Source of the DNA: Bacteroidaceae bacterium | Lineage (GTDB): Bacteria; Bacteroidota; Bacteroidia; Bacteroidales; Bacteroidaceae | Reading direction: 5' to 3' | Assembly: GCA_017524545.1 (NCBI GenBank) | Contig: JAFXVN010000074.1 | Span: forward strand, 43,588 to 107,587 | Length of the DNA stretch: 64,000 nucleotides | Part shown: positions 5,187 through 39,602 of the stretch, piece by piece | Position numbering within the stretch: position 1 is the stretch's first letter | Layout of the letters: the number at the start of each line of letters is the position of its first letter | Notes under the pieces: generated by a model | Told to the model about the DNA's origin: nothing | What the model saw: the letters and a program-made list of their open reading frames with translations, nothing else | Database searches by the model: none | Position numbers and translations under genes: made by a program

Positions 5187-5971
5187 AGCACGCCCTCCGG
5201 TCCTTCGTTAAAGAGCAAATCAACAATGCTGAGGTCGGGCAGGAAGCCATGACGGGAAGCGAAGACTTGGTAGTAGGCCCCCTCCCCGCCTTGCCCTCCG
5301 TCGCTAACGCTCCCCAATCGCTCTGCTCCCAACAGGCGATTGCCCCTTTTGGGGAATGCCACGGAGCCAGCAGAAGGGTTGGCAGCGGCATTGAGGCCCT
5401 CCCCCAAAGGGGCAATCGCCTGTTGGGAGCAGAGCGATTGGGGAGCGTTAGCGACGGAGGGCAAGGCGGGGAGGGGGCTGTAGGTCTGTGTCCTCTTTAC
5501 TGGCTTCTGAATGTCGAGCAACGAAGTAACCAGCATCATCAGTTCTTCGTTGAAGTCTGCAAGGAACTCCCACTTCTTTTCGTAGAAGGGGGCGAAGTCG
5601 TCGGCATAATACTCGAAGAAGGGTGACTGCCTGTAGCTGCTTTCGAGGGCGACCCAGTGCTGGTGGCGCCAGTTTCCGTGGTCGCTGATGCGTATGTCGC
5701 GCATCAGCGTCTTGCCTTTTGGCTTTACGACAGGAATGGTGAGGGTAAGCGCACCATTGGGACTGTCTATGTAGCAGCGGTTGCGGAGCGTCTGCTTCAC
5801 AAAGTTGTCGCAGACCTCAAGGCGCACCTCGTCGGCACGATAGTAGGCACTATAGTGGGAAATGGGGGCAAGGTAGCAGCAAGGCAAAGACCCCTCTAAA
5901 TCTCCCCTTAAAGGGGAGACTTGCGAACAGGAGTCCTCTCCCTTTAAGGGAGAGTTAGAGAGGGTCCTCAT
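5177..5971 (-). CDS. WbqC family protein carrying two palindromic insertions
   Basis: A 264-residue WbqC-like protein; the family occurs in surface-polysaccharide and LepB neighbourhoods and is thought to act on nucleotide sugars or transfer groups. Conserved parts are YLAPISHYSAYYRADEV, QTLRNRCYID, LTIPVVKPKGK, HWVALESSYRQSPFFEYYADD and the C-terminal FLPDLSIVDLLFNEG. Two foreign blocks stand out. Residues 2-28 come from a two-hairpin palindromic element, and about 67 residues before AYYQVFASRHGF come from a 202-base inverted repeat. Without them the protein is about 170-200 residues, the usual family size. It abuts lepB (stop and start adjacent) and overlaps the pseudouridine synthase gene. 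The native start may be the TTG near LPCCYLAP. Confidence 0.88.
   Translation of the reverse strand: MRTLSNSPLKGEDSCSQVSPLRGDLEGSLPCCYLAPISHYSAYYRADEVRLEVCDNFVKQTLRNRCYIDSPNGALTLTIPVVKPKGKTLMRDIRISDHGNWRHQHWVALESSYRQSPFFEYYADDFAPFYEKKWEFLADFNEELMMLVTSLLDIQKPVKRTQTYSPLPALPSVANAPQSLCSQQAIAPLGEGLNAAANPSAGSVAFPKRGNRLLGAERLGSVSDGGQGGEGAYYQVFASRHGFLPDLSIVDLLFNEGPEGVLWL
5277..5478. repeat. 202-base element with 73-base perfect inverted arms inside wbqC
   Basis: Arms 5277-5349 and 5406-5478 are exact reverse complements, with a 56-base spacer. The insertion keeps the wbqC frame open and adds Pro/Ala/Gly-rich residues (for example SPLPALPSVANAP and GSVSDGGQGGEGA). The outer ends (GCCCCCTCCCCGCC) resemble the smaller palindromic elements elsewhere in the window. 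Confidence 0.9.
5889..5966. repeat. Two-hairpin palindromic element at the wbqC 5' end
   Basis: Ends GACCC and GGGTC enclose two hairpins, CTCCCCTTAAAGGGGAG and CTCTCCCTTTAAGGGAGAG, with a short spacer. The wbqC ATG (5969-5971) lies 3 bases outside the element, so residues 2-28 of the predicted protein are element-encoded. Confidence 0.85.
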
Positions 5972-7423
5972 TTACTTGATGTTATCCACCAGCTTGAACA
6001 GGCGGTTCCAGCGGATATGATGACCGCTGAACCAGGAACGGTCCTTGTCTGTGCTGAGCCAGATGAAGATGGGTTTGCCCACGATATGGTCTTCGGGCAC
6101 GAAGCCCCAATAGCGCGAGTCGGCCGAGCAGTGGCGGTTGTCGCCCTGCATCCAGTAGTAGTCCATCTTGAAGGTGTATTCCGTAGCCTTTTTGCCGTTG
6201 ATGAGGATGTCGCCTTCGGGCGTTACCTTCAAGTCGTTGCCTTCATAGACACGGATGGGACGTTCATATATGGGAAGGTTTTCCAAGGTGAGCTTCAAGC
6301 TCTCACCCTTCTTGGGAATCCAGATTGGGCCGTAGTTGTCCTGGGTCCAACCAGTATATCCATTCTGCGGATAAAGCCTGTCTGTATCCTTGTCTTCTAC
6401 GGGTGTGACGCTTGCCACATAGTCTGTCTGCTTTTCCAAAGCTTCTTTTGCAGATTGCGTCAAGGGGATTTCGCCGGTGGTGTACATCTTCTTCACGTCG
6501 TCCATGCTCAGCCCGAGTTCATAGACAAGCTCCTCTGGCAGGTAGCTGGTCTTCAAATCGACATAGTATTTGAACTGTGCGTTCTTGGGAGTCGGGTTCT
6601 CTTTGCTGTCGAGATACACGATGCGGTCGCGAATCTCAAGGGTTTGGCCGGGGAGACCAATGCAGCGCTTCACATAGTTCTCGCGTCTATCGACCGGCCG
6701 CCAACCCACTTCGCCAAAGTCTTTCGGGTTAAGTCGGATGTATTGACGTCCCATCTCATATATGATGCTGTAGTATTTCCGTTGCTCTATGGGTGTCAAG
6801 TCTTCCGGCTGAGGCTTCGTCCCCGCCTGTTGCTCGTAGATTTGTGAGCCGATATCGTAGCAAAGAGCATAGTATTCGGTCTGGTATCTGACGTCGCTGA
6901 CAATGGTATCGCCAGCGGGATAGTTGAAGACCACAATGTCGTTGAGCTTCACGGGCTTTGGCGAGACGCGCTTGTAGTCCCATTGAATCCACTCCAAATA
7001 GCTTTTGCCGCCGAAGGGTAGGGTGTGCTGGCACAGGGGCATGTGGAGGGGTGTCTGCGGCACGCGGGGGCCGTAGCTCATCTTGCTGACCAGCAGGTAG
7101 TCGCCCACGAGGAGGCTCTTTTCAAGCGAACTGGATGGGATGGTGTAGTTCTGGAAGAAGTAGGTGTGGACGAAATAGACGGCTACAAGGGCGAAGACGA
7201 TGGCATCCACCCAGCTCATCACGGTGCGCACGACGGGATTCTCGGCATCTTTCCACCATGTCCAGGGGATGCGGCGCGTGATGTAGGCGTCGAAGATGAA
7301 GGGAATGACGATGATGCCCCACCAGGCATCCACCCAATAGAGGAAGGCGATGTAGAGGGCAATGGCAATGATGCACTTTATCCAGTCTGTCTTTGTGGCT
7401 TTGTATTTCTTTTTCTTGGTCAT
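5972..7423 (-). CDS. lepB: Signal peptidase I
   Basis: A 483-residue inner-membrane serine protease that removes signal peptides from secreted proteins. Two N-terminal hydrophobic stretches (about 17-45 and 66-90) are followed by the catalytic serine, Ser99 in [11 protein letters not shown], the substrate-binding [15 protein letters not shown], and the catalytic lysine, Lys252 in [17 protein letters not shown]. The C-terminal signature is [22 protein letters not shown]. The long insertions between motifs make it larger than the E. coli enzyme, as usual in Bacteroidales. The order dapB-lepB-wbqC is the conserved Bacteroidales arrangement. It starts 44 bases after dapB. Confidence 0.95.
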
Positions 7424-7465: not shown

Positions 7466-7466
7466 T

Positions 7467-8274: not shown

Positions 8275-9522
8275 ATGGAAAGGCTGTTGCACTACGTCTG
8301 GAAGCACAAGATACTGCCCCTGAAGCCGCTCGCCACGGAGGACGGGCAGGAGGTGGAGGTCATCGACCCCGGCCTGCACAACCACGACCAGGGCCCCGAC
8401 TTCTTCAATGCCAAGATTCGGCTGGGCGGGACGCTCTGGGCGGGCAATGTCGAGGTGCATCTGCGCTCGTCGGACTGGTACAGGCACAGTCATCAGGAGG
8501 ACCCCGCCTACAACAGCGTCATCCTGCACGTCGTGGGCGAGATAGACGGCGAGGTCAGGACGCAGGACGGCAAGACGCTGCCCCAGCTGCAGCTCGACAT
8601 CCCCGAGGGCATCCGCAGAAGTTACGAAGAGCTTTGCCGGACAGAGGATTATCCGCGCTGCCACCGCATTGTCACCTCGATACTGCCAATGAAGGTGCAC
8701 CAGTGGATGGACGCTTTGCTGGTGGAGAGGCTGAAGGAGCGGTCGGAGAAGGTGGCGGAGCGGGCAGAGAGGACAGGCGGCGACTGGGAACGCGCCACGT
8801 TCGTCACCCTGGCTCGCAGTTTCGGCTTTGGCTTGAACGGCGACGCTTTCGAGCGTTGGGCCATGCGCATTCCCCTCTCGGCGGCAGGCAAGCACCGCGA
8901 CGACCTGTTCCAGGTGGAGGCACTCTTCCTCGGAATGGCTGGCCTCATCGAAGAGGTCGAGGCCGTGAGGAGCGCGAAGGAGGTTCAGCTTCTCCAGCAG
9001 GAGTATGCCTTTCTCAGGCACAAATTCGGCCTGGACGAGCCGATGCAGCGTGCCGACTGGCGTTTCCTCCGCACCCGTCCCAAGAACTTCCCCTCGGTTC
9101 GCATCCTGCAAATAGCGGAACTCTACCACAGCGGCAGGGCGCAGATGAGCAAGCTCTTGGAGGCACGGGACATCGATGCCTTGCAGGAATGCCTCGCCGT
9201 GAAGGGAATGACGGCTGCCAGCCGCCGCCTGCTCATCATCAACACCGTGGTGCCTCTGCTCTTCGCCTACGGCCGCCACATCAGCGACGAGGACATCTGC
9301 CAGCGGGCTTGCCTGCTCCTGGAAGCTTTGCCAGCCGAGAACAACTACATCCTGCGGCAGTGGCAAGCCTGCGGACTGAAGGTGCAGACAGCAGCCGACA
9401 GCCAGGCGCTCATCCAGCTCAAACGCCAGTACTGCGACAGGACGGACTGCCTCCGATGCCGCTTCGGATACGAATACCTCAAGGGTAGTTCATCTTTCCC
9501 ACGTGTGGGAAACGCCAACTAA
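8275..9522 (+). CDS. DUF2851 family protein
   Basis: A 415-residue cytoplasmic protein of the Bacteroidetes DUF2851 family, whose function is unknown. Conserved features include LHYVWKHKILP at the start, VIDPGLHNHDQGPDFFNAKIRLGG-type residues around 30-55, the aromatic WAGNVEVHLRSSDWYRH, LHVVGEIDGEVR and a C-terminal zinc-ribbon-like CDRTDCLRCRFGYEYL. The core around GPDFFNAK...GNVEVH resembles a nuclease fold, but no activity is established. The last residues (SSFPRVGNAN) are encoded by a CACGTG-centred palindrome. It leads an operon with a thioesterase gene and dprA. Confidence 0.9.
   Translation: MERLLHYVWKHKILPLKPLATEDGQEVEVIDPGLHNHDQGPDFFNAKIRLGGTLWAGNVEVHLRSSDWYRHSHQEDPAYNSVILHVVGEIDGEVRTQDGKTLPQLQLDIPEGIRRSYEELCRTEDYPRCHRIVTSILPMKVHQWMDALLVERLKERSEKVAERAERTGGDWERATFVTLARSFGFGLNGDAFERWAMRIPLSAAGKHRDDLFQVEALFLGMAGLIEEVEAVRSAKEVQLLQQEYAFLRHKFGLDEPMQRADWRFLRTRPKNFPSVRILQIAELYHSGRAQMSKLLEARDIDALQECLAVKGMTAASRRLLIINTVVPLLFAYGRHISDEDICQRACLLLEALPAENNYILRQWQACGLKVQTAADSQALIQLKRQYCDRTDCLRCRFGYEYLKGSSSFPRVGNAN
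9495..9512. repeat. CACGTG palindrome at the end of the DUF2851 gene
   Basis: TTTCCCACGTGTGGGAAA, an 18-base palindrome, spans the last codons of the gene. A related palindrome cluster lies at 59752-59811. Confidence 0.6.
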
Positions 9523-9523
9523 A

Positions 9524-9590
9524 CACGCCTAATTGCCCAACGAGGCACGCCTAATTGCCCAACGAGGCACGCCTAATTTGGCAATTAGCC
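9524..9590. repeat. 22-base tandem repeat between DUF2851 and thioesterase genes
   Basis: Two identical 22-base units (9524-9545 and 9546-9567) and a partial third, each starting CACGCCTAATT, end in an inverted copy of the core (GGCAATTAG at 9580-9588). A similar CACGCCTAAG with an inverted partner occurs near 47805-47825. Confidence 0.75.
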
Positions 9591-9617
9591 ATAGCTAATG
9601 ATAAAACACAACGAGAA

Positions 9618-13078: not shown

Positions 13079-14155
13079 ATGGCGGACAACAAGTATTGTC
13101 TTATCTTGGCAGGCGGCAACGGCAGCCGTCTCTGGCCCATCAGCCGCACTGTCAAGCCTAAGCAGTTCCTCGACCTCTTCGGTACGGGACGCACCCTGCT
13201 GCAGCAGACCTACGACCGCGTGGCTCAGTTCATCGACCCCTCGCACATCTATGTCAGCACCAGTGTGGACTATCTGCCGCTCGTCTATGAGCAGTTGCCC
13301 GAGGTGGACGACATGCATATCCTGGAGGAGCCGCTGCGCCGAGGCACCCTGGCTGCTGTGGCGTGGGCCTCGGTATTCATTGCCAAGCAAGATTCCGAGT
13401 CAACTCTCTTCGTTACCCCTTCCGACCAAATCATCCTGCAAGAGGAGCAGTACCGGCAGGATGTCCTTGCCGGATTGGATTTCGTGGACAGCAACGAAGG
13501 GTTGCTGGTGCTGGGCATCACGCCCTCTCGTCCTGAGACGGGCTACGGCTACATCCAGATGGACGACGAGAAGCCGCTTTCTGGCGACATCTTCCCCGTC
13601 AAGTCCTTCACGGAGAAGCCCGACATGGAGTTTGCCAACATCTTCATGCAGGAGGGCAACTTCCTTTGGAACACAGGTCTGCTGTGCTTTAGCACCCGCG
13701 TCATGCTCGAGAACCTCATCATGCTTGTGCCAGAGTACAGGATGGAGATTCCCCGCATGAAGGTCGAGGCTGAAAGCAACGACCCGAAATTTGTCCCAGA
13801 GAGCTTCAACGCCCTGCCCAACTACAATATGGATGTCAGCATCCTGGAGCGCAGCAGTCAGGTCTTTGTGCAGTGCGGACACTTCGGCTGGGCCGACATC
13901 GGCACATGGGCAAGCATCGGCAAGGACGCTCCTGCCGATGCCGAAGGCAATGTCCTGCTTGATACCAATGCTTTCCTCTACGAATGCTCAGGCAATGTCA
14001 TCCGTCTGCCAAACGGCCACACCGCCGTCGTCAAAGGACTGAAGGACTATGTCATTGCCGAAGAAGGGGAGTTCCTTATGATATGTCCCCGCCACGACAT
14101 CGCGGCCATGCGACGTATGCACACTGACACGAAGTTCGGCGACCAGAAGTCGTAA
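13079..14155 (+). CDS. Mannose-1-phosphate guanylyltransferase
   Basis: A 358-residue nucleotidyltransferase making GDP-mannose from mannose-1-phosphate and GTP. Motifs: LILAGGNGSRLWPISR (GTP binding), KPKQFLDLFG, FVTPSDQII, FTEKPDMEFA, GNFLWNTGLLCF and the C-terminal FGWADIGTW. It is the single-domain form without the isomerase half. ATG 13079 is chosen because the longer frame overlaps the SGNH gene. Mannose-1-phosphate is also the product of the GH130 phosphorylase of the mannan locus in this window, so the two could be metabolically linked. Confidence 0.94.
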   Translation: MADNKYCLILAGGNGSRLWPISRTVKPKQFLDLFGTGRTLLQQTYDRVAQFIDPSHIYVSTSVDYLPLVYEQLPEVDDMHILEEPLRRGTLAAVAWASVFIAKQDSESTLFVTPSDQIILQEEQYRQDVLAGLDFVDSNEGLLVLGITPSRPETGYGYIQMDDEKPLSGDIFPVKSFTEKPDMEFANIFMQEGNFLWNTGLLCFSTRVMLENLIMLVPEYRMEIPRMKVEAESNDPKFVPESFNALPNYNMDVSILERSSQVFVQCGHFGWADIGTWASIGKDAPADAEGNVLLDTNAFLYECSGNVIRLPNGHTAVVKGLKDYVIAEEGEFLMICPRHDIAAMRRMHTDTKFGDQKS

Positions 14156-14156
14156 C

Positions 14157-14262
14157 AGTTCATAGTTCATAGTCCATAGTTCATAGTTATTTGTTTGCTG
14201 GGTTTGCAGGGCGTAGCCTAACTATGAACTATGGACTATGAATTATGAACTATGGACTATGG
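14157..14262. repeat. Inverted heptamer arrays forming a long hairpin between convergent genes
   Basis: Left arm 14157-14189 (GTTCATA units) is complementary to right arm 14218-14250 (TATGAAC units) with very few mismatches and a loop of about 28 bases. Lying between convergent genes it may end transcription from both sides. The right arm encodes the last residues (SKSIVHSS) of the DUF2027 protein. Confidence 0.8.
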
Positions 14263-14959
14263 ACTTGGATGCTGGCTTGTCATCCCTTATAATGTCTTCC
14301 GTCCAGTTGGGTTCCTTGAAGAACTCATTGGGTTGGAAGACATGTAATTTATAGAACTTCGTCAGGTTGAGGCGAAGTTCTGTTGTTATGGCGGGCTTCA
14401 GCTGGAAAGGCTTGTCCTGCTTCCATGCGATGGCCTGCACGCAAAGACGCTCCAAGTCGTTGACCTGCGAACGGTCGAACGCCTCGACGAAGAGCTTGCT
14501 GTTGGGTTCCACCACGCCGCAGAAGCGCAGCCGCCAGCTGGCATTTTCCGCACTCATCAGCGACACCTGCATATAGTAGTTGCTGTCGTTCACAAGGTAC
14601 GACTCGAAACCTGTGCTTGAGATTTCCTTCACCTCGTCGGGCAGGAAGGACAGGTAGAGGTTGAGCCGTTCGCCCTCGCGCCGTTCGAGAGGCTTGGGCT
14701 TGAATGTCGTCGGCTTCTCCTCCGGCTCGGGTTCGGCATCCTCTTGTACCTTGCTCTTTGTCCCTTGCCCCTTGTTTCCAATCGGATTCACCTTCCCTAT
14801 GTCGTAATCCTCGCTGCCTATGACCACAACATCCGCCATCAGCATCGGGATTTCAAACCCGTCCTCGTCCTCCACGAGGACAATGTTCTTCCCTTGGAAG
14901 CCACTCACTCTGCCCCCTCCCACCTCGGAGAGGAAGCGCACTTGATCGCCTATCTTCAT
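14243..14959 (-). CDS. DUF2027 protein lacking the usual C-terminal Smr domain
   Basis: A 238-residue protein. The N-terminal DUF2027 start MKIGDQVRFLSEVGGGRVSG, then VLVEDEDGFEIPML, an acidic linker (about 65-90) and the second conserved part (LNLYLSFLPDEVKEISSTGFESYLVNDSNYYM) match the Bacteroidetes family, whose members, as I recall them, continue into an Smr (MutS2-like) nuclease domain. Here the frame ends soon after NEFFKEPNWTEDIIRDDKP, in heptamer repeats, and no Smr motif follows. It is probably a truncated but still expressed gene. ATG 14959 is chosen because it gives the conserved start and lies just after a good promoter. Confidence 0.82.
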   Translation of the reverse strand: MKIGDQVRFLSEVGGGRVSGFQGKNIVLVEDEDGFEIPMLMADVVVIGSEDYDIGKVNPIGNKGQGTKSKVQEDAEPEPEEKPTTFKPKPLERREGERLNLYLSFLPDEVKEISSTGFESYLVNDSNYYMQVSLMSAENASWRLRFCGVVEPNSKLFVEAFDRSQVNDLERLCVQAIAWKQDKPFQLKPAITTELRLNLTKFYKLHVFQPNEFFKEPNWTEDIIRDDKPASKSIVHSS

Positions 14960-16039: not shown

Positions 16040-18403
16040 ATGAAGGAGAATCTGGTAATTGTGGAGAGCCCGGCAAAGGCTAAGACTATAGAGAAATTTC
16101 TTGGAGACAAATACAAAGTGCTGTCCAGCTACGGACATATTCGCGACCTGAAGAAGAAGTCGTTCAGCGTGGATGAGAAGACCTTCGCACCGCAGTACGA
16201 GGTGCCTGCCGACAAGGTAAAGGTCGTGGATTTGCTGAAGGGACAGGCAGAGCAGGCAAAGATGGTGTGGCTCGCATCCGATGAAGACCGCGAGGGAGAA
16301 GCCATCAGCTGGCACCTTTATGAAGTGCTCGGCCTCAAGCCTGAGAACACCCGTCGCATCGTCTTCCACGAAATCACGAAGCCTGCCATTCTGGATGCCA
16401 TAGAGCACCCCAGGCAGATAGACCTCAACCTGGTGAACGCACAGCAGGCTCGCCGTGTGCTGGACCGCATAGTGGGCTTCAAGCTCAGTCCTGTGCTTTG
16501 GCGCAAGGTGAAGCCAAGCCTCTCGGCAGGTCGTGTGCAGAGTGTCGCCGTGCGTCTCATTGTGGAGCGCGAACGCGAGATAGAGGACTTCCGCAGCGAA
16601 GAGAACTACCGCATCACGGCAAGCCTCACCCCAGTCACCCCTCCTTTGGAGGGGGCGGGGGAGGCTATCAAGGCAGAACTCAGCCGACGCTTCGCCACCA
16701 TCGAGGAGGCAAGGGCATTCCTCGAGAGCTGCAAAAGCTGTCGCTTCACGGTGCAGGACATCGTCACAAAGCCCGTCAAGCGCACCCCGCCACCTCCCTT
16801 CACCACCAGCACCCTGCAGCAGGAGGCAGCCCACAAGCTGGGTTTCACCGTGGCGCAGACCATGATGGTGGCGCAGCATCTCTACGAGAGCGGACGCATC
16901 ACCTATATGCGTACCGACAGCGTCAACCTGAGCAATCTGTGTCTGGGAGCCAGCAAAAAGGTCATTGCCGAGCAGATGGGCGAGGAATACGTCAAGACGC
17001 GCCAATATCACACCAGCTCCAAGGGTGCACAGGAGGCGCATGAAGCCATCCGCCCCACCTACATGGACCAGTCGCAGATAGAGGGCAACCTGCAGGAACG
17101 CCGCCTTTACGACCTAATCTGGAAGCGTACCATTGCCAGCCAGATGGCCGATGCCGAGCTGGAGCGTACGCAAGTGACGATTAGTATAGAAGGCAAACAG
17201 GAAACCTTCCTTGCCGACGGTGAGGTTGTCAAGTTCGACGGTTTCCTGCGCGTATATAGCGACACGAACAGCGAGGCCTATAACGATGGCGAAGGCGAAA
17301 ACGAGAACCTGACCACCCTGCCCGCCATGACTGTCGGCGAGGACCTCTATCGCGAACAGATAGTGGCAACCCAGCGCTTCTCCCAGCGCCCTGTCCGCTA
17401 CAACGAAGCCAGTCTGGTGCGCAAGCTTGAAGAGCTCGGCATCGGTCGCCCCAGCACCTACGCCACCACCATCACCACCATCCAACAGCGTGAATACGTG
17501 GAGAAAGGCGACAAGCCGGGAGAAGAACGCACCTATCAGACGCTTACGCTCACAGGCGACGAGCTGGTCGCAGAATCGCGCACCACGCTTGTGGGTCAGG
17601 AACGGGGCAAGCTGCTTCCCACAGACACAGGTATCGTCGTGAATGATTTCCTGAAGGAGAACTTCCCCGAAATCATGGACTACAACTTCACGGCAGACAT
17701 TGAAAAGGAGTTCGACGACATTGCCGAAGGGAAAATCTCTTGGGAAGGTGTCGTGAGGAAGTTCTATGATGGCTTTGAGCCACTGGTGGAGAAGTCAGTC
17801 AATACCCATACGGAGCACAAGGTGGGCGAACGTGTGTTGGGCGACGACCCCACCACGGGTGCGCCTGTCACTGTCAAGATAGGCCGCTTCGGACCTGTGG
17901 TGCAGCTGGGCGGCGCGGCCACCGGGCAGAAGCCCCGCTTCGCACAGCTTGCTGCTGGGCAGAAACTGGAGACCATCACGCTGGAAGAAGCCCTCGAGCT
18001 TTTCCAACTGCCGCGCAAATTGGGCATGTACGAGGGTGAGCCCATCATCATCGGTGCCGGCAAGTATGGCCCATACGTCTCCCACAAGGGGTCGTATGTC
18101 TCTGTCCCAAAGGGTACAGACCCGATGGAGATAACCTTCGAACAGGCTGTCATCATGATGCACCACAAACATGTGGAAGAGGCGGAACGCCACCTCAGAA
18201 CCTTCAGCGAAGATGCCGAGCTGGAAGTGCTGAACGGTCGCTATGGCCCATACATTACCTACAAGGGCAGCAACTACCGTTTGCCGAAGGCTATGCACGA
18301 GCGTGCCAAGGAACTGACCTACGAGGAGTGTATGCAGATTGTGAATGAGCAAGGCGACAAGCCTGCCGCTAAGGTCTCCAAACGCCGCTTCACGCGCAAA
18401 TGA
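16040..18403 (+). CDS. topA: DNA topoisomerase I
   Basis: A 787-residue type IA topoisomerase that relaxes negative supercoils. The Toprim domain has LVIVESPAKAKTIEKFLG and the metal-binding LASDEDREGEAISWHL; the catalytic tyrosine is Tyr289 in RITYMRTDSVNLS. The C-terminal part has repeats (KYGPYVSHKGSYVSVPKG, RYGPYITYKGSNYRLPK) instead of zinc fingers, as in other Bacteroidetes. Residues 195-209 (SLTPVTPPLEGAGEA region) are encoded by a 45-base palindromic element in frame and are absent from the family pattern ITAS...KAEL. ATG 16040 gives the conserved start. The stop overlaps aroK by four bases. Confidence 0.96.
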   Translation: MKENLVIVESPAKAKTIEKFLGDKYKVLSSYGHIRDLKKKSFSVDEKTFAPQYEVPADKVKVVDLLKGQAEQAKMVWLASDEDREGEAISWHLYEVLGLKPENTRRIVFHEITKPAILDAIEHPRQIDLNLVNAQQARRVLDRIVGFKLSPVLWRKVKPSLSAGRVQSVAVRLIVEREREIEDFRSEENYRITASLTPVTPPLEGAGEAIKAELSRRFATIEEARAFLESCKSCRFTVQDIVTKPVKRTPPPPFTTSTLQQEAAHKLGFTVAQTMMVAQHLYESGRITYMRTDSVNLSNLCLGASKKVIAEQMGEEYVKTRQYHTSSKGAQEAHEAIRPTYMDQSQIEGNLQERRLYDLIWKRTIASQMADAELERTQVTISIEGKQETFLADGEVVKFDGFLRVYSDTNSEAYNDGEGENENLTTLPAMTVGEDLYREQIVATQRFSQRPVRYNEASLVRKLEELGIGRPSTYATTITTIQQREYVEKGDKPGEERTYQTLTLTGDELVAESRTTLVGQERGKLLPTDTGIVVNDFLKENFPEIMDYNFTADIEKEFDDIAEGKISWEGVVRKFYDGFEPLVEKSVNTHTEHKVGERVLGDDPTTGAPVTVKIGRFGPVVQLGGAATGQKPRFAQLAAGQKLETITLEEALELFQLPRKLGMYEGEPIIIGAGKYGPYVSHKGSYVSVPKGTDPMEITFEQAVIMMHHKHVEEAERHLRTFSEDAELEVLNGRYGPYITYKGSNYRLPKAMHERAKELTYEECMQIVNEQGDKPAAKVSKRRFTRK
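16622..16666. repeat. Palindromic element inside topA
   Basis: Starts AGCCTC, ends GAGGCT, centre CCCCTCCTTTGGAGGGG; 45 bases, that is 15 codons, in frame. It is the single-hairpin version of the element in etfB and the M28 peptidase gene. Confidence 0.85.
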
Positions 18404-20827: not shown

Positions 20828-20940
20828 GACCCACCCCGACCCTCCCTTAAAGGGAGGGAGCCAAATGATAAATGTTAAATAATAAATAAGATATGAATGA
20901 AGTAAAGTCCTCCCCCTTTAAGGGGGAGTTAAAGGGGGTC
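20828..20940. repeat. Two-hairpin palindromic element spanning the speA-flavoprotein junction
   Basis: Begins GACCC right after the speA stop and ends GGGTC inside the next gene. The two hairpins are CCTCCCTTAAAGGGAGG and CTCCCCCTTTAAGGGGGAG. The spacer (20863-20908) contains the ATG at 20893, so the element carries both the untranslated leader and the first 16 codons of the flavoprotein gene. Confidence 0.85.
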
Positions 20941-22086
20941 TTGTACATCGGCGTTGATGACCTTGACATCGACCTCTTTGAGAGCCAATACGTCGTGCCG
21001 GAAGGCATGAGCTACAACTCCTATCTTATCGAAGATGAGAAGATAGCTATTATGGATACTGCCGACCGTCGCAAAGGCGAGGAATGGAAGGCAAACCTCG
21101 CTGCTGCCCTCGCCGGCCGTAAGCCCGACTACCTTGTGGCGCATCACATGGAACCCGACCACGCCGCCCTCATTGCCGACGTGCTCTCGGCTTATCCCGA
21201 GACGAAGCTCGTCTGCAGCGCACAGGCTCTGAAGATGCTGCCCAATTTCTTCGACGGCTTCCAGTTCGCCGACCGCGTCCTGACCGTGAAGGAAGGCGAC
21301 ACGCTCTCCCTTGGCAGCCACACGCTCCACTTCATCGCTGCACCTATGGTGCATTGGCCCGAAGTGATAATGAGCTACGAAAGCACAGAGAAAATCCTCT
21401 TTGCCGCAGACGGTTTCGGGAAATTCGGAGCACTCGCCAACGAGACAGACGACTGGGCTTGCGAAGCTCGCCGCTACTACTTCAACATCTGCGGCAAGTA
21501 TGGTGTACAGGTGCAGAACGTCCTGAAGAAGGCTGCAACCCTCGACATACAGGCCATCTGCCCCCTGCACGGACCTGTCCTCACGGGCGAGGCCATGAAG
21601 GAGGCTGTCCGCCTCTACGACATCTGGAGCCGCTACGAGCCGGAAAGCGAAGGCGTGCTCATCGCATACGCCAGCATTCACGGCGGCACGGCAGCGGCAG
21701 CACAGCATCTCGGAGCTCTCCTCCGAGAAAAAGGCGCACGGAAGGTTGTGGTGAGCGACCTCAGCCGCGACGATATGGCCGAGGTTATCGAGGATGCTTT
21801 CCGCTATCCCAACATTGTGGTAGCAGCAGCAAGCTACGACGGAGGTGTCTTCCCCGTAATGCACGACTTCCTGCACCACCTGCAAATCAAGAACTTCCAG
21901 AAGCGTCGCTTCGGCATCGTCGAGAATGGCAGCTGGGCACCCAGCGCAGGCCGCGTCATGAAGGAAATGATTGAAGGCATGAAGGACTGCACAATCGTTG
22001 AACCCCTTGTCACCATCCGCTCCCGCATGAAGCCTGCCGACGAAGAGCAACTTGCTCTCCTGGCAGAGGCAATGGTCAATCCTTAG
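20893..22086 (+). CDS. FprA family A-type flavoprotein (flavodiiron protein)
   Basis: A 397-residue flavodiiron protein that should reduce O2 to water or NO to N2O in the cytoplasm, protecting an anaerobe. The N-terminal metallo-beta-lactamase-like domain has the diiron ligands in HHMEPDHAA and later H residues in LHFIAAPMVHWPE and CPLHGPVL; the C-terminal flavodoxin domain begins with the FMN loop ASIHGGTAAAAQHL. The first ~16 residues (NEVKSSPFKGELKG) are encoded by a palindromic element; the native protein would start near VLYIGVDDLDIDLFESQY. A bidirectional terminator follows. Confidence 0.94.
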   Translation: MNEVKSSPFKGELKGVLYIGVDDLDIDLFESQYVVPEGMSYNSYLIEDEKIAIMDTADRRKGEEWKANLAAALAGRKPDYLVAHHMEPDHAALIADVLSAYPETKLVCSAQALKMLPNFFDGFQFADRVLTVKEGDTLSLGSHTLHFIAAPMVHWPEVIMSYESTEKILFAADGFGKFGALANETDDWACEARRYYFNICGKYGVQVQNVLKKAATLDIQAICPLHGPVLTGEAMKEAVRLYDIWSRYEPESEGVLIAYASIHGGTAAAAQHLGALLREKGARKVVVSDLSRDDMAEVIEDAFRYPNIVVAAASYDGGVFPVMHDFLHHLQIKNFQKRRFGIVENGSWAPSAGRVMKEMIEGMKDCTIVEPLVTIRSRMKPADEEQLALLAEAMVNP

Positions 22087-22144
22087 CTGCACCTTGTCGT
22101 AAAAGAACAAAGGGTGCTGTGTCATAACACAAACAACTACACAA

Positions 22145-22180
22145 AAGAGGGTGTGCCAATTCATGTTGACACACCCTCTT
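22145..22180. terminator. Bidirectional terminator between flavoprotein and DUF3472 genes
   Basis: AAGAGGGTGTG (22145-22155) pairs with CACACCCTCTT (22170-22180), loop of 14 bases with further pairing. It sits between convergent genes. Confidence 0.7.
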
Positions 22181-24656: not shown

Positions 24657-26390
24657 TTATTGTTGTCTATAATTCTCCAACTGCTCCGCATTCATTCTGC
24701 CGACCAGTGAAGCGTGCTTCTCCACTTCTGCCTCGGCGAGGTTGACATAGACCTGAAGGCTCTTGCCGAAGAGTTCGGGAGCTTTCGATGCGTTCTGCAG
24801 CAGGAGAAGGCACATGATGACATCGGCAGCCATCTCGTAGAGGTGACGGGCGCAGAGGTCGAGCAACTCCTGGTTCTCCGCTCCCTTCACAGCAGCGGTG
24901 CATGCATTGAACTTCTCGGCCATACGGCATATCCTCTCTAACTCTCCCTTAAAAGGCGAGAACGGATTGTCTCCCTCTCCCTCGGAGAGGGCAGGGGTGA
25001 GGCTTTCGATAACCTGGCTGTAGAAGCCGTTGGTGACGTAGCGGATGGCAGCTACCGTCTGGAGCTGTGTGGTGCCTTCGTAGATAGAGGTGATGCGGGC
25101 GTCGCGATAGATGCGCTGGCAGGCATATTCGAGCATGAAGCCGCTACCGCCGTGCACCTGAATACAGTCGTAGCCGTTCTGGTTGGCATACTCAGAGTTC
25201 ATGCCCTTTGCCAGAGGCGTAAAGGCATCAGCAAGGCGGCTGTACTGCTTCAGCTCGGCACGCTCTTCCGGTTCCAGCTTGCGGTCGCGGGCAATGTCTT
25301 CCAGTGCCTTGTAGATATCGACGTAGCGGGCAGTCTGGTAGAGTAGGGCGCGGCCTGCATCGAGGCGGGCTTTGATGTTGCTAATCATCTCAGCCACAGC
25401 AGGGAACTCGATGATGGCTTTGCCGAACTGCTTGCGGTCGCGGGCGTAGGCAATGGCTTCGTTATAGGCAGCCTGCGAGAGACCGACGCTTTGCGCGGCA
25501 ATGCCGAGGCGAGCGCCGTTCATCAGGGACATTACATATTTAATAAGTCCCATCTTGCGGTCGCCGCACAGCTCGCACTTGGCGTTCTTATAGACAAGCT
25601 CACAGGTTGGCGAGCCGTGGATGCCGAGCTTGTTCTCGATGCGGCGCACGTCAACGCCGCCGTCGCGCTTGTCGTAGATGAACATCGAGAGGCCGCGACC
25701 GTCGCGCGTGCCAGCTTCTGAGCGGGCAAGCACCAGATGGATGTCGCTGTCGCCATTGGTGATGAAGCGCTTGGCTCCGTTCAGCCGCCAGCAGTTGTTC
25801 TCCTCGTCGAAGGTAGCTTTGAGCATGACGCTCTGCAGGTCGCTGCCGGCATCGGGTTCTGTCAGGTCCATCGACATCGTCTCGCCCTTGCAGACGCGCG
25901 GGATGTACTTCTGCCGCTGCTCCTCGTTGCCGAAGCAGTAGAGCGTCTCGATGCAGTCCTGCAGGCTCCAGATGTTCTCGAAGCCCGCGTCGCCGGTCGA
26001 GACAATCTCGTTGGCTGCCGTATAGACCGTAACGGGCAGATTGAGACCGCCGTAGCGGCGAGGCATCGTCATACCGTTCATGCCAGCCTGAGTCATAGCT
26101 TCAAGGTTCTCGTAGGTCTTCGAAGCGTAGCGCACTCTGCCGTTTTCGTGATGAGGCCCTTCGGCATCGACAGTCTCCGCATTGGGTGCAATCACATTCG
26201 CCGTGATGTCGCCCACGATGTCCAGCACTTTGTCGTAAGTGTCCATAGCGTCCGCGAAGTCCTGCGGTGCCTCGTCGTACTGGTCCTTGTCAGCAAAAGC
26301 ACGTTCTTTCAATTCCACGATGCGAGGCATCAATGGACTATTGTTCAGTTCAAACTGAATCTCTTTTATGTCGTTATAATAATTAGCCAT
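24657..26390 (-). CDS. Acyl-CoA dehydrogenase
   Basis: A 577-residue FAD-dependent acyl-CoA dehydrogenase that would pass electrons to the EtfAB pair encoded just upstream. Motifs: MSMDLTEPDAGSDLQSVMLKA (FAD and substrate), RLNGAKRFITNGDSDIHL, RRIENKLGIHGSPTCEL, AYARDRKQFGKAI and VHGGSGFMLEYACQRIYRDARITSIYEGT, where the catalytic glutamate is expected. The length and long C-terminal extension fit the AcdA/long-form group found next to etfBA in Bacteroidetes. A palindromic element (24932-25004) encodes residues about 463-486 (ESLTPALSEGEGD...). It follows etfA by 4 bases. Confidence 0.94.
   Translation of the reverse strand: MANYYNDIKEIQFELNNSPLMPRIVELKERAFADKDQYDEAPQDFADAMDTYDKVLDIVGDITANVIAPNAETVDAEGPHHENGRVRYASKTYENLEAMTQAGMNGMTMPRRYGGLNLPVTVYTAANEIVSTGDAGFENIWSLQDCIETLYCFGNEEQRQKYIPRVCKGETMSMDLTEPDAGSDLQSVMLKATFDEENNCWRLNGAKRFITNGDSDIHLVLARSEAGTRDGRGLSMFIYDKRDGGVDVRRIENKLGIHGSPTCELVYKNAKCELCGDRKMGLIKYVMSLMNGARLGIAAQSVGLSQAAYNEAIAYARDRKQFGKAIIEFPAVAEMISNIKARLDAGRALLYQTARYVDIYKALEDIARDRKLEPEERAELKQYSRLADAFTPLAKGMNSEYANQNGYDCIQVHGGSGFMLEYACQRIYRDARITSIYEGTTQLQTVAAIRYVTNGFYSQVIESLTPALSEGEGDNPFSPFKGELERICRMAEKFNACTAAVKGAENQELLDLCARHLYEMAADVIMCLLLLQNASKAPELFGKSLQVYVNLAEAEVEKHASLVGRMNAEQLENYRQQ
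24932..25004. repeat. Palindromic element inside the acyl-CoA dehydrogenase gene
   Basis: A hybrid: one half has CTCTCTAACTCTCCCTTAAAA, close to the GACCC-type element; the other has CCCTCTCCCTCGGAGAGGG and ends GAGGCT like the AGCCTC-type element. It is in frame. Confidence 0.8.
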
Positions 26391-27423: not shown

Positions 27424-28371
27424 TTATCCGATTGTATGGCTTGCGAGGAGTTCCTGAACGAGACCGTTCACATCCTCGTCGCTGCCGGTTAATACTTTAC
27501 TTTCCTTTGCCTTGAAGACGATGTTCTCCACGTTCTTCACCTTGGTTGGCGAGCCAGCCAAGCCGCATTGCTGCAAGTCGGCATTCACGTCGGCACAGGT
27601 CAGCTGACCCAGCTTCAGGTAAGGCTTCTTCTCATACTCGCTGGCGTATGGCAGGTCGCCGAAGCCAGTGCCCTGCGGCAGCTCCATAGGAGCGAGGCAA
27701 CGCTTGAACTTCATCACCCGCTTCACATTGCGGGGACGGCAAGGAGCCGCGCTTCCGTTGACGGTCAAGACGCAAGGCAGAGGACTCTCCACCGTCTCCA
27801 CGCCACCGTCAATGTGACGCTTGACAACGAGCCTCCCCCGTCCCCTCCCAAGGAGGGGTGAACAATCAGTCTTGTCTCCCTCTCCTTTGGAGAGGGTTGG
27901 GGTGAGGCTTTTTATCTCTTCTACGTATGTTATCTGATTCAGCCCCAGCTTCTCAGCCACTTGCGGGCCGACTTGGGCCGTGTCGCCATCGATGGCCTGA
28001 CGACCGCCGATGATGAGGTCAACATCGGGGCAGACATGCTTGATGGCAGTGGCGAGGGCATAGCTGGTAGCCAGGGTGTCGGCACCTGCAAAGGCGCGGT
28101 CGGTAAGCAGATAGCCGCCGTCGGCACCGCGATACATTGCTTCACGAATCACTTCGGCAGCGCGGCCGGGACCCATCGTGATGACGGTGACGGTCGTGCC
28201 GGGGAATTGGTCTTTCAGTCTCAGGGCCTGCTCCAGGGCATTCAAGTCCTCTGGATTGAAGATGGCAGGCAGGGCGCTGCGGTTCACGGTGCCTTCCGGT
28301 GTCATGGCATCGGGACCGACATTGCGCGTGTCAGGTACTTGTTTTGCAAGTACAACAATCTTTAATGTCAT
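27424..28371 (-). CDS. etfB: Electron transfer flavoprotein subunit beta
   Basis: A 315-residue ETF-beta. Expected motifs: KQVPDTRNVG, NPEDLNALEQALRLKD, VTVITMGPGRAAEVIREAMYRGADGGYLLTDRAFAGADTLATSYAL-type residues (about 65-110), DLIIGGRQAIDGDTAQVGPQVAEKLG, and the C-terminal LAGSPTKVKN. It forms the heterodimer with EtfA. Residues about 155-180 (SLTPTLSKGEGDKT...LLGRGRGRL) are encoded by an 80-base palindromic element, which lengthens the protein beyond the usual ~290 residues. It is the first gene of the operon. Confidence 0.95.
   Translation of the reverse strand: MTLKIVVLAKQVPDTRNVGPDAMTPEGTVNRSALPAIFNPEDLNALEQALRLKDQFPGTTVTVITMGPGRAAEVIREAMYRGADGGYLLTDRAFAGADTLATSYALATAIKHVCPDVDLIIGGRQAIDGDTAQVGPQVAEKLGLNQITYVEEIKSLTPTLSKGEGDKTDCSPLLGRGRGRLVVKRHIDGGVETVESPLPCVLTVNGSAAPCRPRNVKRVMKFKRCLAPMELPQGTGFGDLPYASEYEKKPYLKLGQLTCADVNADLQQCGLAGSPTKVKNVENIVFKAKESKVLTGSDEDVNGLVQELLASHTIG
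27830..27909. repeat. 80-base two-hairpin palindromic element inside etfB
   Basis: Ends AGCCTC (27830-27835) and GAGGCT (27904-27909). Hairpins CCCCTCCCAAGGAGGGG and CCCTCTCCTTTGGAGAGGG. Same length and layout as the element at 37081-37160. Confidence 0.88.
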
Positions 28372-35323: not shown

Positions 35324-35496
35324 CAGCGCAAAGGTGCTCTTTGACATATTATTACAAAGCAATATCATAACCCCAAATCGGTCATTAGGTGTATTGTGAC
35401 TGGAAGCCAATATGGCAAAGTAATCGGGGACAGTGTGCCGTATAATCTTACAGGACGTGCCACAAAACTTCACATAACGTGTTATGAAATTATTAT

Positions 35497-35580
35497 CAAG
35501 CTTTGAAAATCTATTTTCAAGCCTTGATAATATATTTTCAAAGCTTGATAATATATTTTCACGCCTTGAAAATAATTATA
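35497..35580. repeat. Four tandem 21-base repeats
   Basis: Units at 35497-35517, 35518-35538, 35539-35559 and 35560-35580. Each has a CAAGC(C/T)TTGA-like core followed by an AT-rich ATTTT tail, so each unit is itself partly palindromic (TTTTCAAG...CTTGAAAA). Confidence 0.85.
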
Positions 35581-36092: not shown

Positions 36093-37421
36093 TCAGTACT
36101 CTTCTATGAAGTCGCGCACCAGGCGGAAGACGGGTTCGTAGCTGGCGGTGATGGCGTGGTGCCAGTCGTCGTAGATGGTGTGGTAATACTGGAAGGCGTC
36201 GCCATTCTCGTTCTCAAGGAAGATGCAAGGCACATGCTGCATAGCGAAGGGGTAGTGGTCGCTGTTGGCGGCGAGGTCGCCTCGGTGCAGCTCCTTGAAG
36301 TAGTGCTTCTCTGCGTTTATCTTCTCGAAGAGAGGGAAGGCCGACATGCCTTCGTCGCTCACCTCGCAATACTGCACGGGATTGTTGTCGCCAATCATGT
36401 CGATGTTGAAGAGGTACTTAATCTGGGAGAGCGGCACGATGGGATTCTTCACGAACCATTTCGAGCCATTCAGGTTGGTGTCCTCTCCAGAGAGGGCAAG
36501 GAAGTACATGTCGAATTTCGGACGGTGTTTGGCATAGTAAGCGGCCAGCGTCAGGATGCAAGCCGAGCCGGAGGCATTGTCGTTGGCACCGGCATAGAAG
36601 ACCTTCTTGCCGAGGTTGCCGAGGTGGTCATAGTGGGCTGTGAAGACGTAGCAGCTGTCGTGCCGTTCGCCCTCTATCTTTGAAATGACATTGAAGCACT
36701 CGTAGTCCTTCAGGAACTTGGCATCAACATTGAGGCGAACGCGCTGCACGCCCTCGATGGCTTCGGGTGTCACCCAGACGATGGGCTTATCGACAACCTT
36801 GCTTGCGTATGCCTTGAAGAACTTGATGGGCGCAGGCCAGGTGTAGAGGAGGCCAGCATTGGGAGCCTCGCCGTTTTTCTGCAAACGGGAGAACACGTCG
36901 CGGTGCTTGTAGGTGAACCAGAACTCGCAAGCCACCAGGCAGTTCTGGTACTCGGGTTTGGCGAGGTCGGCAAAGAGCTTGTCGGCATCGAAGTTGAGCG
37001 TGTCAACATGATAGACAGGGAACTCGCCCTTCACGCCTGGCGAATACTCGCGCATCGAGAAATCGATTCCGGGGCGAAGAAGCCTCCCCCTCCCCCTCCA
37101 AAGGAGGGGAGAACTGTCCTGCCCATCTCCCTCTCCTTTGGAGAGGATTGGGGTGAGGCTCTCCATCTCCATCTTCCCTGCGAAGGTCTGGACATCGAGC
37201 TTGAAAGGCTGCAGCGTCACTTCATCCACACCGGCTTTCCTGTATTCCATTTCGAGGAAATGCCCGGCTTTGTTCGCGCCGCCTTTGGCATAGCCGCGAC
37301 CCTGGTACTTCGAGGAGGCCAGTTCCTTCACAATCCGTTTGTAGTGCACCATGTCCTGCGCACTAAGTTGCATACCGACAAGGGCAAGCAAGACAACAAA
37401 AAGCTTTCTCATATCCTTCAT
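36093..37421 (-). CDS. M28 family zinc aminopeptidase, secreted
   Basis: A 442-residue exported metallopeptidase (signal peptide MRKLFVVLLALVGMQLSAQ, starting three codons after the first ATG). Zinc ligands of the M28 fold are visible in order: FTAHYDHLGNLG, GANDNASGSACIL, LSGEDTNLNGSK (catalytic Glu region), FNIDMIGDN and a His in ANSDHYPF. It should trim amino acids from peptides in the periplasm or outside the cell. An 80-base palindromic element adds about 27 residues (SLTPILSKGEGDG... WRGRGRLLR) before IDFSMREYSPG. Transcribed alone. Confidence 0.92.
   Translation of the reverse strand: MKDMRKLFVVLLALVGMQLSAQDMVHYKRIVKELASSKYQGRGYAKGGANKAGHFLEMEYRKAGVDEVTLQPFKLDVQTFAGKMEMESLTPILSKGEGDGQDSSPLLWRGRGRLLRPGIDFSMREYSPGVKGEFPVYHVDTLNFDADKLFADLAKPEYQNCLVACEFWFTYKHRDVFSRLQKNGEAPNAGLLYTWPAPIKFFKAYASKVVDKPIVWVTPEAIEGVQRVRLNVDAKFLKDYECFNVISKIEGERHDSCYVFTAHYDHLGNLGKKVFYAGANDNASGSACILTLAAYYAKHRPKFDMYFLALSGEDTNLNGSKWFVKNPIVPLSQIKYLFNIDMIGDNNPVQYCEVSDEGMSAFPLFEKINAEKHYFKELHRGDLAANSDHYPFAMQHVPCIFLENENGDAFQYYHTIYDDWHHAITASYEPVFRLVRDFIEEY
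37081..37160. repeat. 80-base two-hairpin palindromic element inside the M28 peptidase gene
   Basis: Ends AGCCTC and GAGGCT; hairpins CCCCTCCAAAGGAGGGG and CTCTCCTTTGGAGAG. By eye most positions match the element in etfB, including the middle spacer. Confidence 0.88.
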
Positions 37422-37446: not shown

Positions 37447-37492
37447 CAAAAAAGAATCAATAATCTACGAAGAAGAATTAAGAATTATTTCC

Positions 37493-37500: not shown

Positions 37501-37540
37501 CAGAAGAATTGCGAAATAACAAACAAAATAGAATCTTACT

Positions 37541-38707
37541 ATGACAGAACGGAAACTCAGAATGGGTATGATTGGCGGAGGCGGGAACGCCATGATTGGC
37601 CCAGTCCATCTGCGCGCAGCATTGATGGAGAATGACATCGAACTCGTATGCGGATGCTTCAGCCGCAACTATCAGACATCACTGGCGACAGGCCGGGCTT
37701 GGCACGTCCCCGAGGAGCGCATCTATCGCGACTACAAGGAGATGATGCAGAAGGAGGCTGCCCTGCCCAAGGGAGAACGCATGGACTTCGTTGCCATCGT
37801 CACGCCCAATAAAGTACACTACGAGCAAGCCGCTCTTGCGCTCGACATGGGCTTCGACGTTGTGCTGGACAAACCGATGACTTTCTCCCTCGAGGAGGCA
37901 CTACAGCTACAGAAGAAGGTGGAAAAGACTGGCCTAACGCTGGCCTTGACGCATACCTACTCCGGCTATCCCGCCGTCAAGGAGATGAAAACACGTATTG
38001 CAGAAGGTCAGCTCGGCAAGTTGAGGCGTGTCTATGTGGAATATACCCAGGGATGGCTCTCCCAACGCATCGAGTTGGAAGATGGCAACAATGCCGGTTG
38101 GCGCACCGACCCCGCTCAGGCAGGCAAGGGAGGCTGTGTGGGCGACATCGGTACCCACGCCTGGCACCTCTCGGAATACATAACAGGCGAGAAGGTAGTG
38201 GAGCTTTGTGCCGAGCTTAACACCTTCGTCGAGGGACGGCCTGTTGACGATGATGCAGCGGCCTTTCTGCACTTTACAAACGGTCTGCGAGGCGTGCTTC
38301 ATGCCACCCAGATTGCCACAGGCGAGGAGAACCGGATTGTCATCCGTGTCTATGGCGAGAAAGGCAGCTTCGAATGGCAGCAGATGGAACCGAACACAAT
38401 GATAGCACGATGGGGAGACCGACCAGCAGAAATCATTCGCACAGGCAATGGATACATGGGCACCCTGGCCAAATGGAACACTCGCGTTCCGGGCGGACAT
38501 CCCGAAGGTTTTATTGAGGCCTTTGCTAACATCTACCGCAACTTCTCGAAGACGATTCGTGCCAAAGCTGCAGGCGAGACACCTCTGCCGGAATACTTGG
38601 ACTTCCCCAACGTCAACGACGGCGTGCGCGGACTCCAGTTCATCGAGACAATGGTTGCCTCGGGCTACGATAAGGAGAGGAAGTGGGTTAAGTGGGTTGA
38701 GAAATAG
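37541..38707 (+). CDS. Gfo/Idh/MocA family oxidoreductase
   Basis: A 388-residue NAD(P)-dependent sugar or polyol dehydrogenase-like protein. The Rossmann loop is GMIGGGGNAMIGPVHL; the catalytic-region DKPMTF (EKP-type lysine) is near residue 108; the C-terminal part has YTQGWLSQRIELEDGNNAGW, GGCVGDIGTHAWHLSEYITG (with the HxxxxxH-type residues) and the substrate-binding tail. Cytoplasmic, single gene. The last codons (KWVKWVEK) come from a nine-base repeat and overlap the convergent transporter gene by 20 bases. The substrate is unknown. Confidence 0.9.
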   Translation: MTERKLRMGMIGGGGNAMIGPVHLRAALMENDIELVCGCFSRNYQTSLATGRAWHVPEERIYRDYKEMMQKEAALPKGERMDFVAIVTPNKVHYEQAALALDMGFDVVLDKPMTFSLEEALQLQKKVEKTGLTLALTHTYSGYPAVKEMKTRIAEGQLGKLRRVYVEYTQGWLSQRIELEDGNNAGWRTDPAQAGKGGCVGDIGTHAWHLSEYITGEKVVELCAELNTFVEGRPVDDDAAAFLHFTNGLRGVLHATQIATGEENRIVIRVYGEKGSFEWQQMEPNTMIARWGDRPAEIIRTGNGYMGTLAKWNTRVPGGHPEGFIEAFANIYRNFSKTIRAKAAGETPLPEYLDFPNVNDGVRGLQFIETMVASGYDKERKWVKWVEK

Positions 38708-39602
38708 GTTCCACATGTACCGCCACATGCGTGTCCTTTCCATAGCGTTGCCTCAGGAGTTCTTCCACTTCTGAGGCTTTCTCGTGCGCTTCGCAAAGGC
38801 TGATGTTGCCATCCATCAAGATGTGCAGTTCGATGGCATAGTGGTTGCCGATGCGGCGCGTGCAAAGCTCGTGAGGCTCCGTCACACCGGGGACAGAAGC
38901 TGCCAACTGCAGTATTTCCTGCTCCACCTCGTCAGGAAGGGACTGCTCCATGAGGTCACCAATGCCGCCTCGCAGCAGGTCGAGAGACACTTTCACGATG
39001 AACAGGCCTACGATAATGGAAGCGAGAGGGTCGAGCACCGTCCAGGAGCCTCCCCCGACCCCTCCAAAGGAGGGGAGAAATATGGCGCCGCCTATGCCGA
39101 GGGCTGTGCCGACGGACGAGAGCGCGTCGCTGCGATGGTGCCAGGCATTGGCCTCAAGAGCCTGACTCTCCAAATCCTTTGCCTTTACCATCGTATAATG
39201 GAAGACGCCTTCCTTCAGCACGATGGACAAAAGCGCCGCCCAAAGCGCCAAGAGTCCTGGGGCAGGGAGCTGTTCGCCTCTCGTCCAGGCAACAATCTTC
39301 ATCAGGCCGCCATAGACGATTCCCACGGCAACGGCGAGTAGCATCATGCCGATGATGGTCATCGCCAAAGTCTCGTACTTCCCGTGTCCGTAGTCGTGCG
39401 ACTTGTCCTTGGGCTTGTTGCTGATGTGCACGAAGACGAGCACGATGATGTCCGTCACGAAGTCCGAGAGCGAATGGACGGCATCGGCCACCATCGCAGC
39501 ACTGTGTCCCACGATGCCCGCCACGAACTTGAAGAGCACGAGCAGCACGTTCACCGCACCGCCCCATAGCGTCACCTTATATATCTCCTTGCTTCTGTCC
39601 AT
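38688..39602 (-). CDS. Cation diffusion facilitator (zinc/iron efflux) transporter
   Basis: A 304-residue inner-membrane transporter that should export divalent metals with proton exchange. Six hydrophobic segments are predicted; metal-site residues are in AMVADAVHSLSDFVTD (TM2) and NAWHHRSDALSSVGTALG (TM5); a basic His-Asp loop (SHDYGHGKYETLAM) follows TM3. The C-terminal cytoplasmic domain has ELHILMDGNISLCEAHE. ATG 39602 gives the conserved MDRSKEIYKVTLWGGAVN; the longer frame lies in a repeat. A half palindromic element (39047-39077) inserts FLPSFGGVGGGSW into TM5-6 loop. Confidence 0.92.
   Translation of the reverse strand: MDRSKEIYKVTLWGGAVNVLLVLFKFVAGIVGHSAAMVADAVHSLSDFVTDIIVLVFVHISNKPKDKSHDYGHGKYETLAMTIIGMMLLAVAVGIVYGGLMKIVAWTRGEQLPAPGLLALWAALLSIVLKEGVFHYTMVKAKDLESQALEANAWHHRSDALSSVGTALGIGGAIFLPSFGGVGGGSWTVLDPLASIIVGLFIVKVSLDLLRGGIGDLMEQSLPDEVEQEILQLAASVPGVTEPHELCTRRIGNHYAIELHILMDGNISLCEAHEKASEVEELLRQRYGKDTHVAVHVEPISQPT
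39047..39077. repeat. Half palindromic element inside the cation transporter gene
   Basis: AGCCTC end and one hairpin (CCCCTCCAAAGGAGGGG) of the two-hairpin element; the other end is missing. Confidence 0.8.

Follow-up and report, generated by a model that had tools for sequence, protein, structure and literature searches.

In-frame palindromic hairpin elements in protein loops of a Bacteroidaceae genome and its relatives

Here, we describe a family of palindromic hairpin elements in a 64,000-nucleotide (nt) stretch of DNA from a Bacteroidaceae bacterium (GenBank assembly GCA_017524545.1, contig JAFXVN010000074.1, positions 43,588 to 107,587 of the forward strand), called the window below. 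The window has a GC content of 53.6% and comes from a 3.6-Mb draft genome in 85 contigs, G000 (G, C and L numbers denote genomes, contigs and loci throughout). The elements recur in unrelated genes, mostly inside them and in frame, and at a given protein loop they are present in one species and absent, or replaced by a different repeat, in another. We consider it probable that they form a non-autonomous family resembling REPINs (doublets of repetitive extragenic palindromic, or REP, units), which spreads, is filtered by the reading frame, settles in tolerant loops, decays there and is followed by other repeats.

All elements share one plan. A unit consists of a pyrimidine-rich head and a stem-loop of 7-10 bp whose 5′ arm is pyrimidine-rich, the head being placed about 14 nt outside the stem-loop, and a doublet consists of two such units in inverted order. 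The heads define three subfamilies, S (AGCCTC), D (GACCC) and T (AGCCCC). Among 26 hand-chosen half-elements, six of the eight stem pairs have changed on both sides and 95.2% of the cells pair; the consensus of 22 full copies folds into a single long hairpin, one half of the element pairing with the other. In the 34 doublets of the genome census given below, 31 of which measure 66-94 nt, no flank match of 2-9 nt, and hence no target duplication, was found. Doublets are better conserved than singlets in all three subfamilies, with a mean best identity to another half of 0.98, 0.978 and 0.954 for S, D and T doublets, respectively, against 0.904, 0.889 and 0.838 for singlets. In G013, two doublets on contig C6 (L117) carry a stem of their own, CCCTCTCCCGTGGGAGAGGG, which suggests species-specific subfamilies.

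A reading of the window from sequence alone (the sequence-only reading) had listed seven copies of such a palindrome, in frame in seven genes. The seven loci all carry hairpin elements of one family. Indeed, R1, a covariance model built from 22 genome copies (among them the etfB and M28 peptidase copies of the window), recovered 7/7 at E<0.01 (4.8e-21 to 0.0092), its sole additional match being at E=0.2. Screening the window for pyrimidine/purine hairpins gave 13, of which 11 are in the seven loci and two elsewhere (9495-9512 and 36482-36495); five first-order random sequences yielded 2-6 in all.

The claim of in-frame placement held for most of these copies. Five are internal and in frame: an S-type element with one stem left in topA (16622..16666, plus strand, residues 214-228), an element with an S-type right half and, by eye, a D-like left half with mismatches in the acyl-CoA dehydrogenase gene (24932..25004, minus strand, residues 463-487), S-type doublets in etfB (27830..27909, minus strand, residues 155-181) and in the M28 peptidase gene (37081..37160, minus strand, residues 88-114), and an S-type singlet in the cation efflux gene (39047..39077, minus strand, residues 187-197). 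One predicted peptide of the EtfB insert is SLTPTLSKGEGDK, and in the solved homologue 6fah chain B the two segments that match on either side of the insert, the second of them weakly, are separated by 4 residues; the cation efflux insert is flanked by two segments alignable to FieF, whose structure is solved. A D-type doublet with GACCC ends and two stems (5889..5966, minus strand) is also in frame, right behind the start codon of wbqC as residues 2-28: the N-terminus of the protein reads M[27 residues]LPCCYLAP here and MATLLPCCYLAP in the relative G013. The remaining copy, listed as lying in the flavoprotein gene, departs from the claim, as this D-type pair (20828..20940, plus strand) straddles the start of the gene at 20893-22086: its left hairpin comes after the arginine decarboxylase stop codon and before the next ATG, its right hairpin is in frame behind residue 5. 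This plus-strand gene has an ODP beta-lactamase match and a weak flavodoxin match; the minus-strand open reading frame (ORF) at 20929-22164 has no Pfam match. An eighth copy, absent from the first list, is a 202-nt inverted repeat with T-like ends GCCCCCTCCCCG (5277..5478, minus strand), which falls within the frame of wbqC and takes up about residues 165-231 of the 264. Its 84-nt arms are 96% complementary, and G013 has other residues where this C-terminal part of the G000 protein holds the palindrome.

The same placement is found elsewhere in the genome. In a census of 860,299 bases of G000, 123 hairpins formed 89 elements, nine of which were dropped for want of a head; the 80 retained, among which several weak singlets may be due to chance, comprise 46 singlets and 34 doublets (14 SS, 13 DD, 6 TT and 1 SD). 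If the distribution is uniform, this extrapolates to about 330 elements per genome. Contig C55 alone holds 10 hairpins, against none in first-order random sequence made from it. A blastn search of the whole genome with the etfB copy gave at least 65 matches (40 of 133 candidates scored), and in the 30 loci fetched from it the typical unit measures 81 nt and lies mostly inside long ORFs. With a home-made gene finder (706 genes, an approximate coding density of 0.906), 63 of the 80 elements lie inside a predicted gene, 14 at a gene edge and three between genes; for the doublets alone, 30/34 are inside. Heptamer arrays on the same contigs (n=99) are distributed otherwise, with 21 inside, 28 at an edge and 50 intergenic (P=8e-15). 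Compared with the coding density, the doublets are no different (P=0.40) and the 80 elements taken together are somewhat fewer inside (P=0.001).

The elements are scattered along the lengths of their host proteins, and in 8 of 55 host genes there is more than one element. The SS doublets inside genes are read forward in five cases, in reverse in four and are symmetric in five, and 29 of the 30 inside doublets are read in frame 0 or 2, which makes this a repetition of DNA and not a case of protein homology. A special openness of the element in all frames, once proposed to account for the in-frame copies, is not supported, as the 34 doublets average 3.5 open frames of six against 3.46 in resampled sequence.

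Genome scans with R1 scored only part of the candidates, and the counts they gave are lower bounds. At least 89 of 121 genomes of the genus matched at E<=1e-4 (38 candidates scored in each), and at least 8 of 295 genomes of the order at E<=1e-6 (15 scored in each), G000 being included in both; the family is therefore not limited to its source genome. Furthermore, one exact half-element pattern occurs in at least 108 stretches of named genomes, and all 80 titled matches belong to what we take to be Bacteroidota, including Segatella, Prevotella, Flavobacterium, Croceitalea, Psychroflexus and Chitinophagaceae. In those 80 loci, 34 of 92 half-element matches lie within an ORF of at least 200 codons, a count limited by contig ends, so that intragenic placement is not confined to the genus, although it looks less dominant elsewhere. 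The sequence-only reading had missed this spread of the repeat core through Bacteroidota.

Could the elements be an assembly artefact, or low-complexity loops that converged? Many of the genomes searched are incomplete drafts, and the residues S, P, G and K abound in the encoded peptides. However, the same core is found in named strains of Segatella and Flavobacterium columnare, and copies in unrelated genes share identity at the level of DNA and are read in both orientations, which speaks against protein convergence; we hold such an origin to be extremely unlikely.

One loop of isoleucyl-tRNA synthetase (IleRS, assigned via solved structures) carries such elements in more than one genus. Just before the motif FLAWTTTPWT, an S-core insert occurs both in a Flavobacterium record (L300) and in a Prevotella record from sheep abomasum (L280). 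At the same place, reading by eye shows hairpin units in pairs, of a different sequence, in G517, which is assigned to the class of G000, and an inverted array of short repeats in G000 itself; in the rest of the 30 genomes fetched the loop varies in length and no element was detected. In L300, in G517 and, in degenerate form, in G494, two units seem by eye to bracket native sequence. Native DNA could not be shown to be a general spacer of doublets: it was clear in one of nine tested (L184, 0 of 300 shuffles), borderline in L173 (5%) and not seen in seven. In the IleRS of G517 and G471 (L385 and L384), the tblastn match is also interrupted around query residues 310-328, suggesting that IleRS has another variable loop there.

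Alignments of orthologues show presence and absence of the elements between congeners, as had been expected of a mobile family, and the orthologues do not share the inserted residues. For EtfB (21 of 30 fetched loci aligned), 19 proteins have a short native turn, G000 has the S element and G013 has a different element at the same point, S-like at its start and D-like further on. For TopA, with 30 loci fetched out of 114 genomes with a match, 27 have a short native loop, G000 has S, and G020 and G051 have, by eye, a D-like peptide and an S-like start, respectively. In acyl-CoA dehydrogenase, the insert of G013 still has its two ends but lacks the middle, and four other orthologues are native. 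In the M28 peptidase, G013 has a repeat-like peptide at the place of the insert and G005 and G008 are short. In yet another protein, G000 and G005 differ at one and the same position, the former having an S-like element and the latter a D doublet; likewise, in what is presumably leucyl-tRNA synthetase, an S-type element in L331 corresponds to a D-like one in G000. The family is thus neither fixed nor private to one species, so that both outcomes named in the sequence-only reading as refuting it failed to occur, and its description as mobile-looking is supported, movement itself being what we infer.

The closest comparisons come from two genome pairs, G069/G105 and G087/G124, which are 92.7% and 94.8% identical in DNA at the topA locus, respectively. 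Of 26 elements in G124, G069 and G105, 20 had their flanks mapped onto G087, G105 and G069; self matches were skipped, target gaps of -5 to 400 nt were kept in the length comparison, and one loop (L175/L182) was counted from both sides. In 28/28 element-by-genome comparisons, both partners have an ORF of more than 100 codons across the site, and in 26 of them the two lengths differ by a multiple of three (P=7e-11 under independence, an assumption that does not fully hold). In both pairs, native segments of 17-91 nt stand in place of the partner's element, and the native residues have therefore mostly been replaced, not merely interrupted. Among 14 loops of G069/G105 with a mapped partner, two hold the same element, four no repeat and eight a different repeat, namely D-type or mixed palindromes or inverted heptamer arrays (four of these eight labels were given by program, four by eye). 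This refilling of loops by different repeats was not part of the sequence-only reading. Heptamer arrays, mostly found outside genes, thus occupy in relatives the same protein loops as palindromic elements.

Differences of this kind between species could also be alleles imported by homologous recombination from other species, not gained and lost locally. Flank identity indeed varies from loop to loop within one genome pair. However, recombination moves alleles and leaves unexplained both the in-frame origin of the repeats and their copies in unrelated genes, and we regard it as a very unlikely explanation.

In the explanation that we favour, doublets would give rise to copies at new sites; the intermediate would probably be a single strand in folded form, processed by an enzyme whose gene lies elsewhere. 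Copies arriving in genes would survive only where the frame is kept and the protein loop, at the surface, is tolerant, selection acting as the frame filter; native loop residues would often be lost along with the arrival of the element. The copies would later decay to singlets or to partly deleted remnants. Tolerant loops being presumably few, they would be hit, emptied and refilled repeatedly, and orthologous loops would come to hold different repeats.

Several observations weigh against this explanation. No fitting mobilising enzyme was found in a survey of Y1 transposases (PF01797) in 121 genus genomes and at 16 Y1 loci, and the presence of Y1 is not associated with R1 copy number at any of four cut-offs (Fisher P 0.13-0.86). 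The frame filter alone, modelled as random insertion with every in-frame open insertion tolerated and intergenic copies assumed to be cost-free, predicts about 65% of copies inside genes, and we found 88% of doublets (P=0.002) and 79% of all elements (P=0.006). Clean empty sites are rare, the native segment being mostly replaced, and two of the 28 length differences (L177/L208 and L184/L212) are not multiples of three. Finally, of the 71 inside elements, 12 had an orthologue for comparison, which in one case did not align, and the comparison between relatives covers one genome per species. The excess of copies in genes and the refilling of the same loop by different repeats in relatives were both unexpected.

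Another explanation is loop-to-loop replacement without true transposition: hairpins would stall replication or repair, and template switching would copy another hairpin repeat into the place, the in-frame positions being inherited from existing loops. The predominance of different repeats in the G069/G105 loops fits such a process, as do the presence of inverted heptamer arrays, and not of S, D and T elements alone, in these loops, the coding bias above the filter model and the sharp edges seen in several alignments. On the other hand, the TopA and etfB loops are mostly native in aligned relatives (27/30 and 19/21), so elements do arise in otherwise native loops, and S and D have little common sequence to prime a switch. 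We hold replacement without transposition to be possible but rather unlikely.

As for the mover, the sequence-only reading had pointed to a TnpA-REP type transposase, and the REPIN-like anatomy would indeed fit ordinary REPINs whose mover is a Y1 transposase encoded in that genome (a REP-associated tyrosine transposase, RAYT). G000 has four PF01797 matches, three of them over the cut-off, and one of these genes (L063) has a D doublet no more than 1 kb away. However, PF01797, present in 63 of the 121 genus genomes, is found in 18 of 27 genomes with at least 10 R1 hits and in 45 of 94 others (P=0.13), and five S-rich genomes (G020, G104, G124, G089 and G106, all incomplete) are not among the 63. 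Apart from L063, none of the 16 Y1 loci has an S, D or T element in the flanks fetched, including all 12 from relatives. Five of the relatives' Y1 genes (L228, L229, L230, L234 and L237) are flanked by hairpin pairs of other sequence, CCAGCC..GGCTGG or CCCAGGGC..GCCCTGGG, which are a separate REP-like system. Since Y1 presence and R1 counts are not significantly associated and the Y1 genes have different hairpins near them, we rejected a RAYT as the mover and judge this origin very improbable.

A broader view, which we put forward tentatively and think somewhat doubtful as it stands, is that a limited set of surface loops in conserved Bacteroidota genes serves as ports, where hairpin cassettes of any family (S, D and T elements, inverted heptamer arrays, larger palindromes) land and are exchanged fast and in frame, in a general, ongoing rewriting of protein loops with repeat DNA. 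Such cassettes would differ even between species whose topA DNA is about 93% identical, and Prevotella and Flavobacterium would share the same IleRS port. If our reading of the elements is right, short hairpin repeats supply an abundant phylum with new protein segments on a large scale and still do so, in proteins that include tRNA synthetases, a topoisomerase and electron-transfer proteins. The naturally matched empty, filled and refilled loops would make insertion tolerance, effects on enzymes and the spread of repeats without a visible transposase testable, and annotation and protein alignments in these genomes should expect such elements.

The window holds other repeats as well. Degenerate heptamer arrays of the AACTATG, AATTGTA and TTCACTT types, some in inverted pairs, lie at 14153-14200, 14220-14277 and 48742-48784, tandem 22-nt repeats (CCAACGAGGCACGCCTAATTG) at 9515-9599 at the end of a predicted gene, and two more inverted repeats outside predicted genes at 35491-35553 and 59751-59812.

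The literature searched, in which subscription journals are thinly covered, gave no description of the S/D/T family, and a search with six stem sequences of 15-17 letters matched no paper. Intragenic REPs and Rickettsia palindromic elements (RPEs) are already in print; the comparisons below draw on portions of the papers cited. RPEs are palindromic, fall into several families and lie in frame in unrelated protein genes, and the CGTC class, including RPE-4 and RPE-6, is listed there without transposase association (PMC10969869, PMC3733652). The likeness, a multi-copy palindrome in frame in unrelated genes, bears out by placement the RPE parallel drawn at the outset, although it is one of description and not of sequence, and in another phylum. 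RPEs are given as about 150 bp in the review among these papers, longer than most units here, and here one loop often holds different families in sister species. Palindromes inside protein genes, with inverted repeats of up to 284 bp, are also reported in nematomorph mitochondria (PMC6649704), similar by description only and in organelle genomes.

Among REPs associated with TnpA-REP, subclass 2.4 lies inside tnpA genes without frame loss and subclass 2.6 comprises atypical REPs in Bacteroidetes; intragenic REPs occur in O. terrae and R. conorii, and recB of two Xanthomonas has different REPs at about the same site (PMC6006769, PMC3733652). In contrast, most copies here are intragenic, refilled loops are frequent, and the heads, judged by reading the sequences, are unlike GTAG, GTGG or CGTC tags at the foot of the stem; kinship with the REPs of subclass 2.6 may exist. 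As regards miniature inverted-repeat transposable elements, which have terminal inverted repeats and target site duplications, the doublets have inverted ends and 0 of 34 have a flank match of 2-9 nt; the search for an autonomous parent covered the element list, by reading. The closest likeness in build is to REPINs, which in Pseudomonas fluorescens and others consist of two inverted REP units with a spacer, with several groups per genome and doublets more conserved than singlets (PMC3116915); the inverted doublet is likewise the conserved unit here. However, REPINs are described as extragenic and near a RAYT (PMC3116915), and the elements here are mainly intragenic in the census, while no cognate RAYT flanked by the same REP was found in the fetched flanks of the Y1 loci, where one D doublet lies near L063. 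The S/D/T elements thus combine the placement of RPEs with the build of REPINs.

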